In this document: positions 1-35,397 of the stretch, one piece after another
How the letters are laid out: every line of letters begins with the position of its first letter
Numbering within the stretch: the stretch's first letter is position 1
Origin: a virus
DNA length: 35,397 bases
IMG/VR virus record: IMGVR_UViG_3300035703_000248
Span: 1 to 35,397 of that record
Reading direction: 5' to 3' (one strand)
The notes under the pieces: model-generated
Seen by the model: the letters and a program-made list of their open reading frames with translations, nothing else
What the model was told of the DNA's origin: nothing
Database searches by the model: none
Program-made: the position numbers and the translations under genes

Positions 1-29
1 TTGACGTTCTAGCTTTGTCGCGCTATGTT
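1..29 (+). promoter_or_regulatory. Sigma-70-like promoter of the plus operon
   Basis: The -35 hexamer TTGACG (1-6) and -10 hexamer TATGTT (24-29) are separated by exactly 17 bp. Transcription should start near 35-37, giving a leader of about 35 nt before the ATG at 72. The promoter is repeated at 35256-35284. It overlaps almost completely with an opposing promoter for the minus operon. The only mismatch between the two terminal copies lies in the spacer at position 16. Confidence 0.75.
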
Positions 30-36
30 GTCAACA
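26..36. promoter_or_regulatory. Palindromic operator candidate over both promoters
   Basis: TGTTG-T-CAACA is a perfect dyad with 5-bp arms around one central base. It covers the -10 element of the plus promoter (24-29) and the -35 element of the minus promoter (29-34), so one bound repressor could block both. The obvious candidate ligand is the HTH protein encoded directly downstream; that is inference. The dyad recurs at 35281-35291. A wider inverted pair, GTTGAC (35255-35260) and GTCAAC (30-35), flanks the promoter core. Confidence 0.5.
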
Positions 37-71: not shown

Positions 72-542
72 ATGCTGACACTAAAAGAGATTCGCAGCGC
101 CCTTGCCGACCGAAGGCTCGACGTGGTGGCCGAAGCGACCGGGCTTCACCCGAACAGCATCGCCAGGATTCGGGACGGGAAGAACGACAGCCCGAGACCA
201 GAAACGATCGATGCGTTGTCGCGCTACCTGATGCAGAGCGTAAAGCCGGCGACCGGATGCTACATGGCTGAAATTGTGGAGGCAGAGCTAATCAAGAGGG
301 TTGGTGTTGGGCAAGTCGCCGTGGTGACCTACAAGCTTTTTGAAACGGGGAAGTTTGCTAGCGTTTGTTACGTCGTTAAAAGTGACGACGAAAAGAAACA
401 GTCTGATGGGCGCACGTCGCTTGCTGGTCTTTGTCGCTCGATTGGCATGACGCGCATCGTCAACCTCGACGAACTCGTGGGCAAATGTCTCCGCATTTGC
501 TTCTACGAAGAGATCGTGCACAAGAAGGTGCAAAATGGCTGA
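72..542 (+). CDS. HTH regulator fused to a DUF669-like (SSB-like) domain
   Basis: This 156-aa protein is probably the phage's transcriptional switch. Residues 1-53 form a small helix-turn-helix domain of a type common in phages; the segment around residues 16-36 (AEATGLHPNSIARIRDG) is the likely DNA-reading unit. Residues 62-148 align by eye with residues 23-113 of the phage's own DUF669 protein (minus strand, 33333-33803). Shared landmarks are the G-x-Y-x-A start, LA-x-LCR-x-x-G near the middle and D-x-L-x-G near the end, about 28 identities in about 86 columns. The start is ATG 72 because AGGAG lies 9 nt upstream and because an upstream TTG at 15 is lost in the second terminal copy. The gene overlaps the primase by 8 nt. 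DUF669 proteins usually sit in phage recombination modules, so this fusion is unusual; ssDNA or partner binding is inferred. Confidence 0.8.
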   Translation: MLTLKEIRSALADRRLDVVAEATGLHPNSIARIRDGKNDSPRPETIDALSRYLMQSVKPATGCYMAEIVEAELIKRVGVGQVAVVTYKLFETGKFASVCYVVKSDDEKKQSDGRTSLAGLCRSIGMTRIVNLDELVGKCLRICFYEEIVHKKVQNG

Positions 543-2559
543 CCTAACACGCTACTTCGGCGGCCAGCCGTTCGTGCCGACCAACGTCGTTCCGCTTCGC
601 CAGCCGGAGGCGCCGGACGTGCAAGCGGCAGACGCGATGCGTGCGGCAGGCATCGAACCGCCGCCGCAGTTGCACTTCGATGGGAAGGTGCACCGCTTCT
701 CGACCGACAAGAAGCGCGACAAGTCGGGCTGGTACGTCTTCTTCCCCGACGGCATCCCGGCGGGGCGCTTCGGTGACTGGCGCACGGGGCTCGACGTGCC
801 TTGGCGAGCGGAGGCCGGGCGCGAGCTCACGGACGCTGACCACATGGCGTACGCGAACCGGATTCGCGAGGCGCAGAAGGCGAGGGACGCGGAGCGCGAG
901 CGGGCGCAAGCCATCGCCGCCGACATGGTGGATTCCATCTGGGCGAGCTGCGCAGGTGCCGACGATGCGCACCCGTACCTGACCCGGAAGGGCATCCGGG
1001 CGCACGGCCTTCGCATCACCTCCGACGGTCGACTCGTCGCTCCGCTCTACGACGGTGAGGGGTCGCTCTCGTCGCTCCAGTACATCGACCACGCGGGCGG
1101 CAAGCTCTACCACCCCGGCGGCGCCGTCGGCGGGCGCTTCAACATGCTCGGCACGCTCGACGAGCCGGGGCCGCTCTACGTCGCCGAGGGCTTCGCCACC
1201 GCTGCCACCGTGCACGAGGTGAGCGGTCGCCCCGTCGTCGTGGCGTACAGCGCGAGCAACCTCGTGCCCGTTGTCGGAATCTGGCGCGAGAAGCTCGGCG
1301 CCTTTGCGGAGATCGTCATCGTGGCCGACAACGACGCGGGGGGAGTGGGGCAGCGGTACGCCGAGCAGGCATCGGCGAAGCACGGGGCGCGGGTCATCAT
1401 CCCGCCGGAGCTCGGCGACGCGAACGACTACCGCGCCGCGGGTCACGACCTCGCCTCGCTGCTTGCACCCGCCCGCGATGAGTGGCTGATTCCCGCCGAC
1501 GACTTCGCCTCGAAGCCCGCTCCGATTGCGTGGCTCGTCAAGGGCTGGTGGCAGGCCGACGCGCTCATCATGGTCCATGGCCCAAGCGGCGGCGGGAAGA
1601 CCTTCGTCGTGCTCGATTGGGCGCTCAGGATGGCGGCGGGAATCGACGACTGGCACGGCGCGAAGGTTCGTCCCGGCCCCGTCGTCTACCTCGCCGGAGA
1701 GGGGCACCACGGCCTTCGCAGCCGCGTCGCGGCCTGGAAGCAGCACCACGGCGCGAAGCGTCTTGATATGTGGCTCTCAAAGGCCGGGTGCGACCTCAAC
1801 ACGCCGGAGGGCTACCAGCGCGTAGCCGACGCCATCCGGGCGCTGAAGGTGCTTCCGCGCGTCATCATCGTCGACACGCTGCACCGCTTCCTTCGCGGCG
1901 ACGAGAACAGCGCCCAGGACGCGAAGACGATGCTCGACGCCTGCGCGCGCCTCATGGCCGAGTTCGCTTGCTCCGTCGTGCTCGTGCACCACACCGGCGT
2001 CTCCGATGAGGCGCAGCACCGGGCTCGAGGTAGCTCGGCGTGGCGCGGTGCGCTCGACATCGAGATCAGCGTCGTTCCGCCGAAGGGCGACGGCCCCATT
2101 GAGATCGTGCAGCGCAAGAGCAAGGACGCCGAACTGGCGAAGCCGATGCACGTCGAGCTTCACCAGGTCGAAATCACGGGGTGGCTCGACGAGGATGGTC
2201 AGCCGGTGACGAGTGCCGTCATTGTGGCGGGCGATGAGCCCATGCCCAAAATCAAAGTCGACGGCAAGCTCGCAGAGTCGCGCTCCAGCTTCGAGCGCGC
2301 TTGGTGGGATTCAGGCTGCGAGCTTCGCAACGGAGTTCCGTATCTCTCGCGCTCTGCCCTGCGTGAGCACATGATGAAGAACAAGAAGAGCGAGAGCTAC
2401 ATCAGGCAGGCGATGAAGCCGAGCGGAGGGAAGTTCATTCAGTCGCTGACTGATTCCGGCATCATCGCGGAGCATGAACACGGGTGGATTGTGTGCGATA
2501 ATGTAAACGCAAGTGGGTTGCTCATTGCGTTGAGAGGAGTGGTACCAGATGGTACCTGA
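535..2559 (+). CDS. Toprim primase fused to RepA/DnaB-like helicase
   Basis: This 674-aa bifunctional replication protein should make RNA primers and unwind DNA at the phage fork. The N-terminal part resembles phage primase N-termini without a CHC2 zinc finger. A Toprim domain spans roughly 150-305, with the catalytic glutamate in VAEG (E218) and the DxD metal motif D265/D267. A RecA-like helicase follows: Walker A GPSGGGKT at 349-356, Walker B VIIVD ending at D447, and an HH motif near 485. The last ~90 residues look like a winged helix. The start overlaps the HTH gene by 8 nt, so the two are probably translationally coupled. The C-terminal tail reads into the GGTACC repeat array, so the last residues are encoded by repeat DNA. 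No DNA polymerase gene is present, so host polymerase is presumably recruited. Confidence 0.88.
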   Translation: MADLTRYFGGQPFVPTNVVPLRQPEAPDVQAADAMRAAGIEPPPQLHFDGKVHRFSTDKKRDKSGWYVFFPDGIPAGRFGDWRTGLDVPWRAEAGRELTDADHMAYANRIREAQKARDAERERAQAIAADMVDSIWASCAGADDAHPYLTRKGIRAHGLRITSDGRLVAPLYDGEGSLSSLQYIDHAGGKLYHPGGAVGGRFNMLGTLDEPGPLYVAEGFATAATVHEVSGRPVVVAYSASNLVPVVGIWREKLGAFAEIVIVADNDAGGVGQRYAEQASAKHGARVIIPPELGDANDYRAAGHDLASLLAPARDEWLIPADDFASKPAPIAWLVKGWWQADALIMVHGPSGGGKTFVVLDWALRMAAGIDDWHGAKVRPGPVVYLAGEGHHGLRSRVAAWKQHHGAKRLDMWLSKAGCDLNTPEGYQRVADAIRALKVLPRVIIVDTLHRFLRGDENSAQDAKTMLDACARLMAEFACSVVLVHHTGVSDEAQHRARGSSAWRGALDIEISVVPPKGDGPIEIVQRKSKDAELAKPMHVELHQVEITGWLDEDGQPVTSAVIVAGDEPMPKIKVDGKLAESRSSFERAWWDSGCELRNGVPYLSRSALREHMMKNKKSESYIRQAMKPSGGKFIQSLTDSGIIAEHEHGWIVCDNVNASGLLIALRGVVPDGT

Positions 2560-23535: not shown

Positions 23536-24371
23536 CCGCACGCGAGCTTCCTGCTAGGCGCACCGTCGTGTCGCCCGTTGAAGTCTACATGGCCCTGCGC
23601 CTCCAGCTCGAAGCGCAGCTCGGCAAGGAGCAAACGACGCGGGCCGGCGCGATGATTCTCCTCGGGCAGATGGCCCTCGAGACGGGGCGCTTCGAAGCCA
23701 CGATGAATTACAACTTCGGCGGCGTGAAGTGCTCGTCGAGCTGGGCCGGGTGTTGGCAACACTTCACCACCACCGAGCACGTCACCGAGGCCGACGCCGA
23801 GCGTCACCTCGCGATGGCGCCAGCGGGCACGAGGGTCGAGCGCGTGGGCGTCGACGATGACGGGCGCGTCATCCTGCGTTTCAGCGGGAAGCACCCGGTG
23901 AACAAGTTCCGCGCCTTCGAGACGCTTGACGACGCGATGAAGCATCACGTCGCGTTTCTCCTTGGCAAGCGATACCGCAACGCGGTTCACCTCGCGATGG
24001 CGGGGCGCGCCGACGACTACGCGATCGCCCTGCGGTCGGCGGGTTACTACACCGGCGACGCGGCGAGCTACGCGAGGAACGTGCGCCTCCTCGCGAAAGA
24101 ATACGACGGCAAGATGCCGCCCGACCCCGCGCCCGTTGCGCCGCCTACGCGCCCCGCTGACGAGCTCGTGAGCCTCGCGGCGACGGTGCCTGCGCCGGTG
24201 CCTCAAACGCCCGTCGTGACGCCGCCAAGGCCGAGCGACGAGGCGCCCGCTCCGGTCATCGCACCGCCTGCGATGCCGCTTCCGCAGATCGGCACCGGCC
24301 TCACGCGCGAAGAGCCGCGACCCTGGTGGGTGCGGCTCCTGGCGTGGCTCTTTCGGCTTACCTCGCGCTAG
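23532..24371 (+). CDS. Glucosaminidase-like endolysin
   Basis: This 279-aa protein should cut the glycan strands of host peptidoglycan. Residues ~16-160 resemble the FlgJ/LytF-type glucosaminidase fold: a GQMALETGRFEATMNYNFGG segment with E50 as candidate catalytic glutamate, a compact Cys pair around 67-75 (CSSSWAGC), then a YYTGDAASYARNVRLLAKEY helix near 174-193. A Pro/Ala-rich linker (about 197-255) leads to a hydrophobic basic C-terminus (WWVRLLAWLFRLTSR) that may associate with the membrane. No signal peptide is visible, so release probably needs a holin. GTG 23532 overlaps the previous stop; being last of the lysis genes is unusual. Confidence 0.75.
   Translation: MTARELPARRTVVSPVEVYMALRLQLEAQLGKEQTTRAGAMILLGQMALETGRFEATMNYNFGGVKCSSSWAGCWQHFTTTEHVTEADAERHLAMAPAGTRVERVGVDDDGRVILRFSGKHPVNKFRAFETLDDAMKHHVAFLLGKRYRNAVHLAMAGRADDYAIALRSAGYYTGDAASYARNVRLLAKEYDGKMPPDPAPVAPPTRPADELVSLAATVPAPVPQTPVVTPPRPSDEAPAPVIAPPAMPLPQIGTGLTREEPRPWWVRLLAWLFRLTSR
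24368..24371. other. CTAG shared by two convergent stop codons
   Basis: The palindrome CTAG supplies TAG to the endolysin (24369-24371, plus) and TAG to the last minus gene (24370-24368). The two operons therefore meet with no spacer and no visible intrinsic terminator on either side. Confidence 0.9.
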
Positions 24372-33332: not shown

Positions 33333-33803
33333 TCACTTCGCCCACGGGGGCTTCGGCCCGGCCTTCGCCGGTGCGCCCTTCGCAGCAGCGGGAGCCGGCG
33401 TCGCCGAGCCCTCGAGGCTCTTGTGCCCCTGCACCTCGTTCTGCGCCTCGTAGCCGCCCGAGGCCTCGCGCACCTTGAGCTTCACGCTGACGTTCGCTCC
33501 GAGGAGCTGGTCGGTGTCGTTGACGCGGGCGAGGCCAACGCAGCGGCAGAGTTCCGCGAGCTGCTCGCGCCCGATGGATTCAGCCTTCGGGTTCTCGTTC
33601 CTGACGTTATAGTTCGACCACACCTTGCGGCCCGCGCCGCTCGGCCCCGAGATGGTGTACTCCACGCGGAGATACTGCCCCGTTCCGCTCTTGGTCTGCT
33701 TGACCTCGGCGCCGGTGATGCTGGCCGTGTACCAGCCGGGCGCGAGGACCTCGAAGCTCTTCTCGGTTGCGGGAACGTCGGACGGGTTAAAATCGAATTG
33801 CAT
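33333..33803 (-). CDS. DUF669 protein (SSB-like recombination partner)
   Basis: This 156-aa protein matches the DUF669 pattern: FEVLAPGWYTASITGAEVK near 17-35, KVWSNYNVRNENPKAESIG near 60-78, then QLAELCRCVGL and DTDQLLGANVSVKLKV. The C-terminal 35 residues are a flexible Ala/Pro/Lys tail ending in KPPWAK. DUF669 proteins accompany phage single-strand annealing modules and are thought to be OB-fold ssDNA-binding proteins; the binding here is inferred. ATG 33803 directly follows the 133-aa gene. Residues 23-113 align with the C-terminal half of the HTH regulator at 72-542, making the two proteins partial paralogues. Confidence 0.8.
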   Translation of the reverse strand: MQFDFNPSDVPATEKSFEVLAPGWYTASITGAEVKQTKSGTGQYLRVEYTISGPSGAGRKVWSNYNVRNENPKAESIGREQLAELCRCVGLARVNDTDQLLGANVSVKLKVREASGGYEAQNEVQGHKSLEGSATPAPAAAKGAPAKAGPKPPWAK

Positions 33804-33808
33804 GGTCT

Positions 33809-34210
33809 TCAGTCTTTCTTGATGGGGGCAGTGATTGCGAACGACGGGCGACCCGGCGTCGTGGTGATGGCGCCGAGGAGCGGCGCGGTGATGGTCGGCG
33901 CTGCGCTCTTCCAGGCTGCGGCGTTGATGTCGGCGGACCAGCGAAAGAGCGAGCCGAGGTGCTCGGAGAGGCCGTGCTCGGCGGCGAGTTCCTGCAACTT
34001 GTCGGCGTCGACCTTGCGGTTCATGCGGCCAACGACCTTGATGCTGAAGCCTTGCTCGGTTTTCGCGTTCGTCGTGCCTTCCTTGCCTTCCTCGAGCGCG
34101 AGCAGCTCCACGAGGCGGTCTTCGATCGTCCGTCGACGAGCGACCGCGATCGCCTCGTCGGCCTTCGCGTCGCACCACTGGGCGGAGAGTTCGTCGAGCT
34201 CTTGGCTCAC
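33809..34210 (-). CDS. Unknown protein between AAA ATPase and DUF669 genes
   Basis: This 133-aa protein starts at GTG 34210 in a GTGA overlap with the ATPase stop. It begins with an amphipathic helix (ELDELSAQWCDAKADEAIAV followed by RRRTIEDRLVELLAL), then a strand-rich stretch (GFSIKVVGRMNRKVDADKLQ) and a LFRWSADINAAAWK segment, ending in an ITTTPGRPSFAITAPIKK tail. Proteins of this layout (KA-E--A--RR--IE-R, RK-D---L, F-WK-D-) are commonly found in the same slot in other phages. A recombination accessory role is suggested only by position. Confidence 0.65.
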   Translation of the reverse strand: MSQELDELSAQWCDAKADEAIAVARRRTIEDRLVELLALEEGKEGTTNAKTEQGFSIKVVGRMNRKVDADKLQELAAEHGLSEHLGSLFRWSADINAAAWKSAAPTITAPLLGAITTTPGRPSFAITAPIKKD

Positions 34211-34881
34211 GACGCACCGCCGATCTTGCGAATGACCGCGCCGAGGTCCGGCGACTCCCACGTCTCGAGCTTGCCCGAACGGTCCTTCGCGAGCCATGCG
34301 CCGTCGGGCGCACACTGGAGGCCGCGCACTGCGTTGCCTTCCGCGTCACGCTCGACGCGCAAGGCGAGCACCTCGTCGAAGAAGTACGGCAAGGCTTGCC
34401 CCGTCTTGTTCCCAGGCATCCCTGGCGCGTATGTGATCTTCCCGAGTTCGTCCGTCGTCTTGTCGAGCTTTGCCGTGACGTAGACGTGATGCGTCGGCAC
34501 GTCGCGAAAGGCGCGCACGAGCTCGGCGAGCTGGTCCTGCATGGCGCCGTAGGCTTGGCGCGGGTCTTTCGCCGTGCGCTTCTCCGTCGTGAGGATGACC
34601 TCGGCGATTTCAGAGAGCGAGTCGATCGCGACGCTCTCGAAGCCGCGGGCCTCGTCTGACCCGACGAGCCACGAGTAAGCCTCGTGGAGCTCCGCGATGG
34701 TGCTGATCGTGATGTAGGGCACCTCGTCGTCGGCGAGGCTCAGGAGCCCGCCTTCCGCCGAGAGCACGATGGGCTTCGGCAGCGTGCGAATGAGCGACGT
34801 TTTGCCAGCGCCCGCGGCGCCGTACACGAGCACCTTCACCGCGCCCGCGGCGCGAGAGGTGCGTTTGATTGAGATTGCCAT
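34207..34881 (-). CDS. Sak4-like AAA/RecA-type ATPase
   Basis: This 224-aa protein has Walker A GAAGAGKT at 21-28 and a Walker B region ending at D87 (FESVAIDSLSEI), with a VYVTAKLDK segment and an RVERDAEGNAVRGLQC region further on. It matches the AAA_24/Sak4-type phage ATPases that act as single-strand annealing or recombination mediators together with SSB-like proteins. ATG 34881 is preferred over an upstream in-frame ATG because AAAAGG lies just ahead of it and because the longer version would be read through a hairpin. It heads the recombination block AAA - unknown - DUF669 - nuclease - helicase. Confidence 0.82.
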   Translation of the reverse strand: MAISIKRTSRAAGAVKVLVYGAAGAGKTSLIRTLPKPIVLSAEGGLLSLADDEVPYITISTIAELHEAYSWLVGSDEARGFESVAIDSLSEIAEVILTTEKRTAKDPRQAYGAMQDQLAELVRAFRDVPTHHVYVTAKLDKTTDELGKITYAPGMPGNKTGQALPYFFDEVLALRVERDAEGNAVRGLQCAPDGAWLAKDRSGKLETWESPDLGAVIRKIGGAS

Positions 34882-34980: not shown

Positions 34981-35208
34981 TCAGGAGTTCAGCCACGCCT
35001 CGTAAGCAGCGCGCATCTCGTTCTCGTTGCCCTCGACGTAGCAGTCGAGCTCGCCGTCGACCTCGATCCAGCCCTCGGGGGTGGCCGCGAGGGATTCGCC
35101 GACCTGTTCCCAGGTGGCGTAGCCGACGGCCTCGCCGCTGGCGTCGATGAGGCGGAAGGGCGAGAACTTCAGCGTGAAGAGTTCGGCGGGGGCGGCTTCG
35201 AGAATCAT
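34981..35208 (-). CDS. First gene of the minus operon, unknown small protein
   Basis: The protein reads MILEAAPAELFTLKFSPFRL, then DASGEAVGYATWEQVGESLA and GWIEVDGELDCYVEGNE. ATG 35208 is chosen because AGGAA lies 7 nt upstream; ATG 35223 would add five residues but has its purine-rich site too close to the start codon. It is acidic, probably alpha/beta, with one cysteine. As the first product from the minus promoter it would appear earliest in infection, so a host-directed or regulatory role is reasonable but not shown. Confidence 0.65.
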   Translation of the reverse strand: MILEAAPAELFTLKFSPFRLIDASGEAVGYATWEQVGESLAATPEGWIEVDGELDCYVEGNENEMRAAYEAWLNS

Positions 35209-35260
35209 CGTTTCGTTCCTCATCGCCTCGGTCGGGTGATTCCGTTTGGGCGATGTTGAC

Positions 35261-35289
35261 GTTCTAGCTTCGTCGCGCTATGTTGTCAA
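35261..35289 (-). promoter_or_regulatory. Sigma-70-like promoter of the minus operon
   Basis: Read on the minus strand, a perfect -35 TTGACA (35289-35284) is followed after 17 bp by TAGAAC (35266-35261) as -10. Transcription would start near 35254 and reach the first minus gene after a leader of about 45 nt. The element overlaps the plus promoter so fully that one RNA polymerase would exclude another. The same promoter is present at 6-34 in the left repeat copy. Confidence 0.7.
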
Positions 35290-35326
35290 CACTGAGTCGT
35301 TAAAAAAACGACAGGAGACATGTAAG

Positions 35327-35397
35327 ATGCTGACACTAAAAGAGATTCGCAGCGCCCTTGCCGACCGAAGGCTCGACGTGGTGGCCGAAGCGACCGG
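35327..35397 (+). CDS. Partial second copy of the HTH-DUF669 gene
   Basis: The ATG at 35327 and the following 71 bases repeat 72-142 exactly and are cut by the end of the window. It encodes the first 23 residues of the HTH domain. It is the redundant end of a circular or permuted molecule and not a separate gene. Confidence 0.9.
   Translation, partial: MLTLKEIRSALADRRLDVVAEAT

Follow-up and report, generated by a model that had tools for sequence, protein, structure and literature searches.

How two halves of a phage genome can be served by one short intergenic region is the question raised by this locus. The window, i.e. the whole stretch of 35,397 nucleotides that was analysed, consists of a circular phage genome of 35,255 bp followed by a 142-bp end repeat. 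Gene calling gave two strand runs, plus from 72 to 24371 and minus from 35208 to 24368, which meet tail to tail, and the promoter site described below is the sole divergent intergenic region between them. The plus run carries the regulator, primase-helicase, terminase, P22-type portal, scaffold, coat, connector, DNA-transfer and endolysin genes. The minus run carries the genes for Sak4, SSB, a Cas4-like exonuclease, a helicase and a protein weakly matching Holliday junction resolvases. The features around the divergent region are:

72-542, plus strand: regulator of 156 aa, the first rightward gene, with a Cro/C1-type HTH (aa 1-53) and a DUF669/SSB-like domain (about aa 61-145)
535-2559, plus strand: primase-helicase (Toprim + AAA), the second rightward gene
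34981-35208, minus strand: first leftward gene, 75 aa, of no family and variable among close relatives
34207-34881, minus strand: Sak4-like ssDNA annealing protein, a conserved leftward gene
33333-33803, minus strand: the phage's own DUF669 protein (SSB), encoded near Sak4
35256-35397, no strand: end repeat, a copy of 1-142 in which a single base differs (T16 versus C35271), within the promoter spacer

Because the sequences of the relatives L006-L008 continue across the join, with C at the mismatch position, the promoter site is internal and complete; T16 represents a variant or an assembly error. Elsewhere in the plus run, all eight GGTACC sites of the genome are packed into the space (2541-2655) from the 3' end of the primase gene to the small terminase gene. 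This cluster includes the palindrome CCTCCCCTATAGGGGAGG, is kept in L008 and is absent in L006; a packaging site, an origin or an operator array are possible.

Two opposed putative promoters were located in the divergent gap:

1-6, plus strand: -35 box TTGACG of the rightward promoter; it occurs again at 35256-35261, within the end repeat
24-29, plus strand: -10 box TATGTT of the rightward promoter, after a 17-bp spacer; start predicted near 36
29-34, minus strand: -35 box TTGACA of the leftward promoter, read directly
6-11, minus strand: -10 box TAGAAC of the leftward promoter, after a 17-bp spacer; start predicted near 35254

The hexamers, the 17-bp spacings and an 11-bp dyad reported by the first-pass annotation are all present where it had placed them. 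Its wording ‘near-consensus’ is generous in the case of the minus promoter, since the -10 box TAGAAC has only 4 of 6 matches; this box is weak, without the final T that most relatives carry. Each -10 abuts the -35 of the other direction, and about 37 bp separate the predicted starts. Genome-wide, only five plus-strand and three minus-strand sites score at least 9/12, and the promoter pair is among them. Compared to dinucleotide shuffles of its own region, the pair reaches z = 5.9, and 0 of 40 shuffles scored as high. Altogether this points to two opposed sigma-70-type promoters within the same 34 bp. Binding of polymerase had also been proposed to be mutually exclusive, and simultaneous binding does appear implausible on steric grounds; for overlapping promoters, PMC4207663 cites such exclusion as demonstrated.

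The same annotation had placed a single operator dyad on both promoters. The dyad exists, but it is only part of a larger inverted repeat centred on position 17.5, with the following elements:

26-36, no strand: 11-bp dyad TGTTGTCAACA (TGTTG-T-CAACA); GTCAACA (30-36) in its right part also forms the right-hand arm of the larger repeat
35254-35260, no strand: left arm TGTTGAC of the larger repeat, equal to -1 to 5 on the circle and mirroring GTCAACA at 30-36
10-13 and 22-25: inner arms TAGC and GCTA of the larger repeat

The full symmetry about 17.5 reads TGTTGAC-N4-TAGC-N8-GCTA-N4-GTCAACA, and two of its bases sit left of the join, at 35254-35255. On this axis 12 of 26 positions pair, as compared to 2-5 on neighbouring axes. 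The arms overlie both -35 boxes, and each arm joins the -35 of one direction to the -10 of the other. Elsewhere in the genome GTGTTGACA, with up to one mismatch, was no commoner than chance. A perfect 13-bp dyad resembling that of the promoter, GTGTTG-G-CAACAC, is found at 23750-23762 inside an endolysin-like gene. Additionally, the predicted rightward leader contains a hairpin, GTCGTT-AAAAA-AACGAC (41-57), directly 5' of the ribosome site of the regulator.

The order Sak4 (minus), HTH (plus) and primase (plus) is shared by Salicola phage CGphi29, Idiomarinaceae phage 1N2-2, MW202867 and a large number of IMG/VR contigs, and Sak4 and primase are divergent in all 138 loci holding both genes. 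The exact pattern TTGAC-N22..27-GTCAA was set aside as a group signature. Because it occurs in only 6 of the 138 loci, a degenerate scorer with shuffled controls was adopted; this scorer also picks matches in coding regions. The intergenic regions were reduced to 48 with little shared sequence, and the best rightward and the best leftward promoter were picked independently in each. In 23 of these 48 regions the -35 boxes were 32-34 bp apart, while 60 rounds of dinucleotide shuffling gave a mean of 0.68 and a maximum of 3; roughly half of the 48 regions are without the geometry under this independent-choice test. An example is Idiomarinaceae phage 1N2-2, with TTGACT-17-TATGAT against TTGACA-17-TAGATT. 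Judged against the shuffles, the promoter geometry is not due to chance, and it appears conserved across a broad phage group.

Two ordinary divergent promoters might nevertheless overlap simply through a short intergenic space, the symmetry being the consensus read twice and no operator being present. The -35/-10 consensus does explain most of the symmetric bases, and bidirectional promoters are common in bacteria (PMC12825309). This explanation is at odds with the 32-34 bp spacing, which is held in diverse phages, and with the conservation of bases outside the -35 (roughly GTG before TTG) on both sides in relatives. The latter is noteworthy because a -35 alone needs no such bases. Arm-to-arm similarity within one phage is only modestly above shuffled pairing and thus weak as an independent operator test. 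A further argument against ordinary promoters is that the type of arm tracks the type of HTH protein, as described in the following.

The HTH proteins of the relatives belong to several families, and most have about 60 aa, as compared to 156 aa in the window. In the case of the window's regulator, the Cro/C1 fold is indicated by Pfam HTH_26/HTH_31 matches near cut-off, by phrog_18104 (E 3e-10) and by a predicted model in which the HTH has a pLDDT of about 90 and finds HTH matches in Foldseek. Of 26 loci with HTH class A (‘HPATVYRF’), 25 have GCAAGC arms, and 36 of the 39 class B loci have GTCAAC arms. Mapped on the primase tree, about 10 independent pairs show class A and the GCAAGC arm changing jointly, and 0 show the opposite (sign test, p about 0.002). 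Overlap counts and gain/loss numbers on the primase tree were discarded; here L094 had been labelled weakly overlapping (15.1) and was separated on inspection. Class C proteins pair with several arm types, and with only 4 independent pairs the relation of their recognition-helix residue to the operator was not significant. Because arm sequence co-varies with HTH type, the HTH protein probably binds the repeat arms; neighbouring HTH gene and arms could also move as one cassette, which would equally yield co-variation. With these observations, we regard two ordinary overlapping promoters without an operator as quite improbable.

We consider it fairly probable that the site is a conserved interlocked bidirectional promoter, autorepressed by its own first gene product. 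For such a mechanism we infer promoter activity, start sites, dual repression, autorepression and steric exclusion as follows. A near-palindromic sigma-70-type promoter would launch the leftward run (Sak4, SSB, exonuclease, helicase), and its rightward output would be the regulator, the primase and then the packaging, head and lysis genes. The Cro-type HTH protein, as first rightward product, would bind the arms over both -35 boxes, so that both directions are damped together and the regulator limits its own synthesis. Between binding events, polymerase would fire in one direction at a time.

The first-pass annotation had interpreted the locus as a compact either/or switch. In a true switch of this type, polymerase competition would produce mutually exclusive leftward and rightward programmes, and the HTH protein would tip the balance. 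Such a reading draws on the full overlap of the promoters and on the conservation of this overlap, and pLS20 shows how a switch can arise when divergent promoters of unequal strength overlap and are combined with a regulator (PMC4207663). However, it needs strong basal firing or an opposing regulator. Regarding the first, the five E. coli bidirectional promoters that have been tested all show too little basal transcription for polymerase competition unless they are activated (PMC12825309). Regarding the second, one HTH regulator was found, adjoining the promoter site, and the scanned proteins of the leftward run included no second or opposing regulator. The site also differs from a lysis-lysogeny switch of the lambda type, with no integrase and no second repressor among the proteins scanned (some small ORFs lay outside the scan). 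Furthermore, one bound regulator should shut both directions and not choose between them, because the symmetric arms cover both -35 boxes.

Close relatives offer an additional view on this point. L006, L007 and L008 are 96-100% identical over the block between about -50 and 150, with both flanks diverged. L013-L017, L019, L020, L024 and L094 have the leftward leader in common with the window, and in the four that were aligned (L013, L014, L024, L094) identity ends exactly at position 1. In L013, L014 and L017 the best-scoring promoters, some with low scores, are separated and back to back: the leftward -10 is in the same place, and the rightward promoter lies directly before the HTH start codon. 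In L015, L019, L020 and L094 the assignment of the rightward promoter is uncertain. As predicted promoters are separated in some close relatives, this group has at least two alleles, of which the interlock is one, and the interlock is not a necessity. Taken together with the arms on both -35 boxes and the failure to find an opposing regulator, the either/or interpretation is not supported in the form proposed, and we regard a true switch as unlikely.

Two further observations concern these relatives. In L014 the likely rightward -10, TATGCT, is about 10 bp before the HTH ATG, and the rightward mRNA may be nearly leaderless. Among L006, L008 and L013-L020, the first leftward gene (34981-35208) and the C-terminal domain of the regulator are both highly variable, and the promoter block between them is nearly identical.

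The C-terminal domain of the regulator had been overlooked in the first-pass annotation. Pfam alone gave no DUF669 hit for it, and a profile comparison gave one. Compared to the DUF669 family including the phage's own protein, hhalign returned 97.6% with 33% identity over 85 columns; the controls (reversed, column-shuffled and 17 other proteins) stayed at or below 4.5%. The copy of the domain in L006 matches by blastp (39% over 87 aa). By sequence, the domain is homologous to the DUF669 family. The predicted fold, of modest confidence (mean pLDDT 69), consists of the HTH and a beta-rich domain, and its matches among viral structures include DUF669 proteins. The top PDB match in Foldseek was Stl2, weak at E 0.003; the Stl2 matches were set aside, with an rmsd of about 11 A, as probably driven by the HTH. 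The HTH-DUF669 fusion occurs in the window phage and three close relatives, and a wider search with two peptide patterns returned only the same three contigs.

In phage HK620 the DUF669 protein is an experimentally shown SSB, which binds its Sak4 only when on ssDNA (PMC5928155). It is of the same family as the regulator's C-terminal domain and the protein at 33333-33803, and is likewise encoded near Sak4 (PMC5928155). In contrast to the window, where one copy is fused to an HTH and is tail-less, the HK620 SSB is a stand-alone protein carrying an acidic tail. SaPI2 Stl2 is similarly an HTH repressor that binds Sak/Sak4 recombinases (PMC11846896; PDB 8Q86, 8RC5), but belongs to a phage satellite and not to the phage itself.

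These parallels raise the idea that the promoter is governed by a replication sensor. Here the SSB-like domain would bind ssDNA, or Sak4 on ssDNA, and this would alter the grip on the promoter, so that replication or recombination feeds back on both transcripts. It would fit with the fusion of HTH and DUF669, with the Sak4 and DUF669 SSB encoded in the opposite run, with the binding of HK620 Sak4 to its SSB on ssDNA (PMC5928155), with DriD as an ssDNA-controlled regulator (PMC12340889) and with the targeting of Sak and Sak4 by the repressor Stl2 (PMC11846896). However, the regulator domain is without the acidic tail used by the HK620 SSB for Sak4, and it diverges quickly among the four phages. 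In addition, most relatives have an HTH protein of about 60 aa, and therefore the promoter itself needs no sensing; the DUF669 domain could serve only dimerisation. Such feedback thus seems unlikely to us. We are similarly doubtful about its most specific form, in which ssDNA, or Sak4 on ssDNA, would release (or recruit) the SSB-fused repressor and intermediates of replication or recombination would directly set transcription of both genome halves.

With autorepression of an interlocked promoter as the preferred reading, the locus may be useful in several ways. To our knowledge, little work has been devoted to how two-way promoters are controlled. A large, mostly uncultured phage group appears to keep interlocked promoters at fixed spacing where the two runs of the genome diverge, and the interlocked and separated versions are natural alleles for probing what the interlock does. 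The SSB-like domain of the regulator would be a testable direct link from ssDNA metabolism to phage gene control, as a second copy of the phage's SSB domain on the regulator suggests that DNA copying could feed back on gene control.

Three further known systems are close. In pLS20, the promoters Pc/Pr with RcoLS20 are also overlapping and divergent, the regulator gene is on one side, and polymerase excludes the other direction (PMC4207663). There, promoter strengths differ several-hundred-fold, and the mechanism includes DNA looping as well as activation by the regulator of its own promoter, whereas the phage site is known from sequence alone. In the case of Tn10 tetR/tetA, as cited in PMC11686294, one regulator encoded on one side uses operators between overlapping divergent promoters to repress both directions. 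TetR has its own fold and a drug ligand; the phage site has a Cro-type HTH protein, with no known ligand, and is in a phage genome. Finally, the bidirectional promoters of E. coli and Salmonella plasmids (Warman, Grainger et al.; PMC12825309, PMC10268837) share with the phage site a pseudo-symmetric DNA to which polymerase could bind in two orientations, one at a time. Judged by sequence, both phage promoters lie within 1-34 and are therefore on the same DNA, as in the definition of Warman et al., under which polymerase bound in one orientation blocks the other. The bacterial promoters differ in having a shared -10 and starts most often 18 bp apart, with 10 and 23 bp also common. In the phage site, the -10 boxes (24-29 and 6-11) are separate, each abuts the opposing -35, the predicted starts are separated by about 37 bp, and the -35 boxes of both directions are strong.
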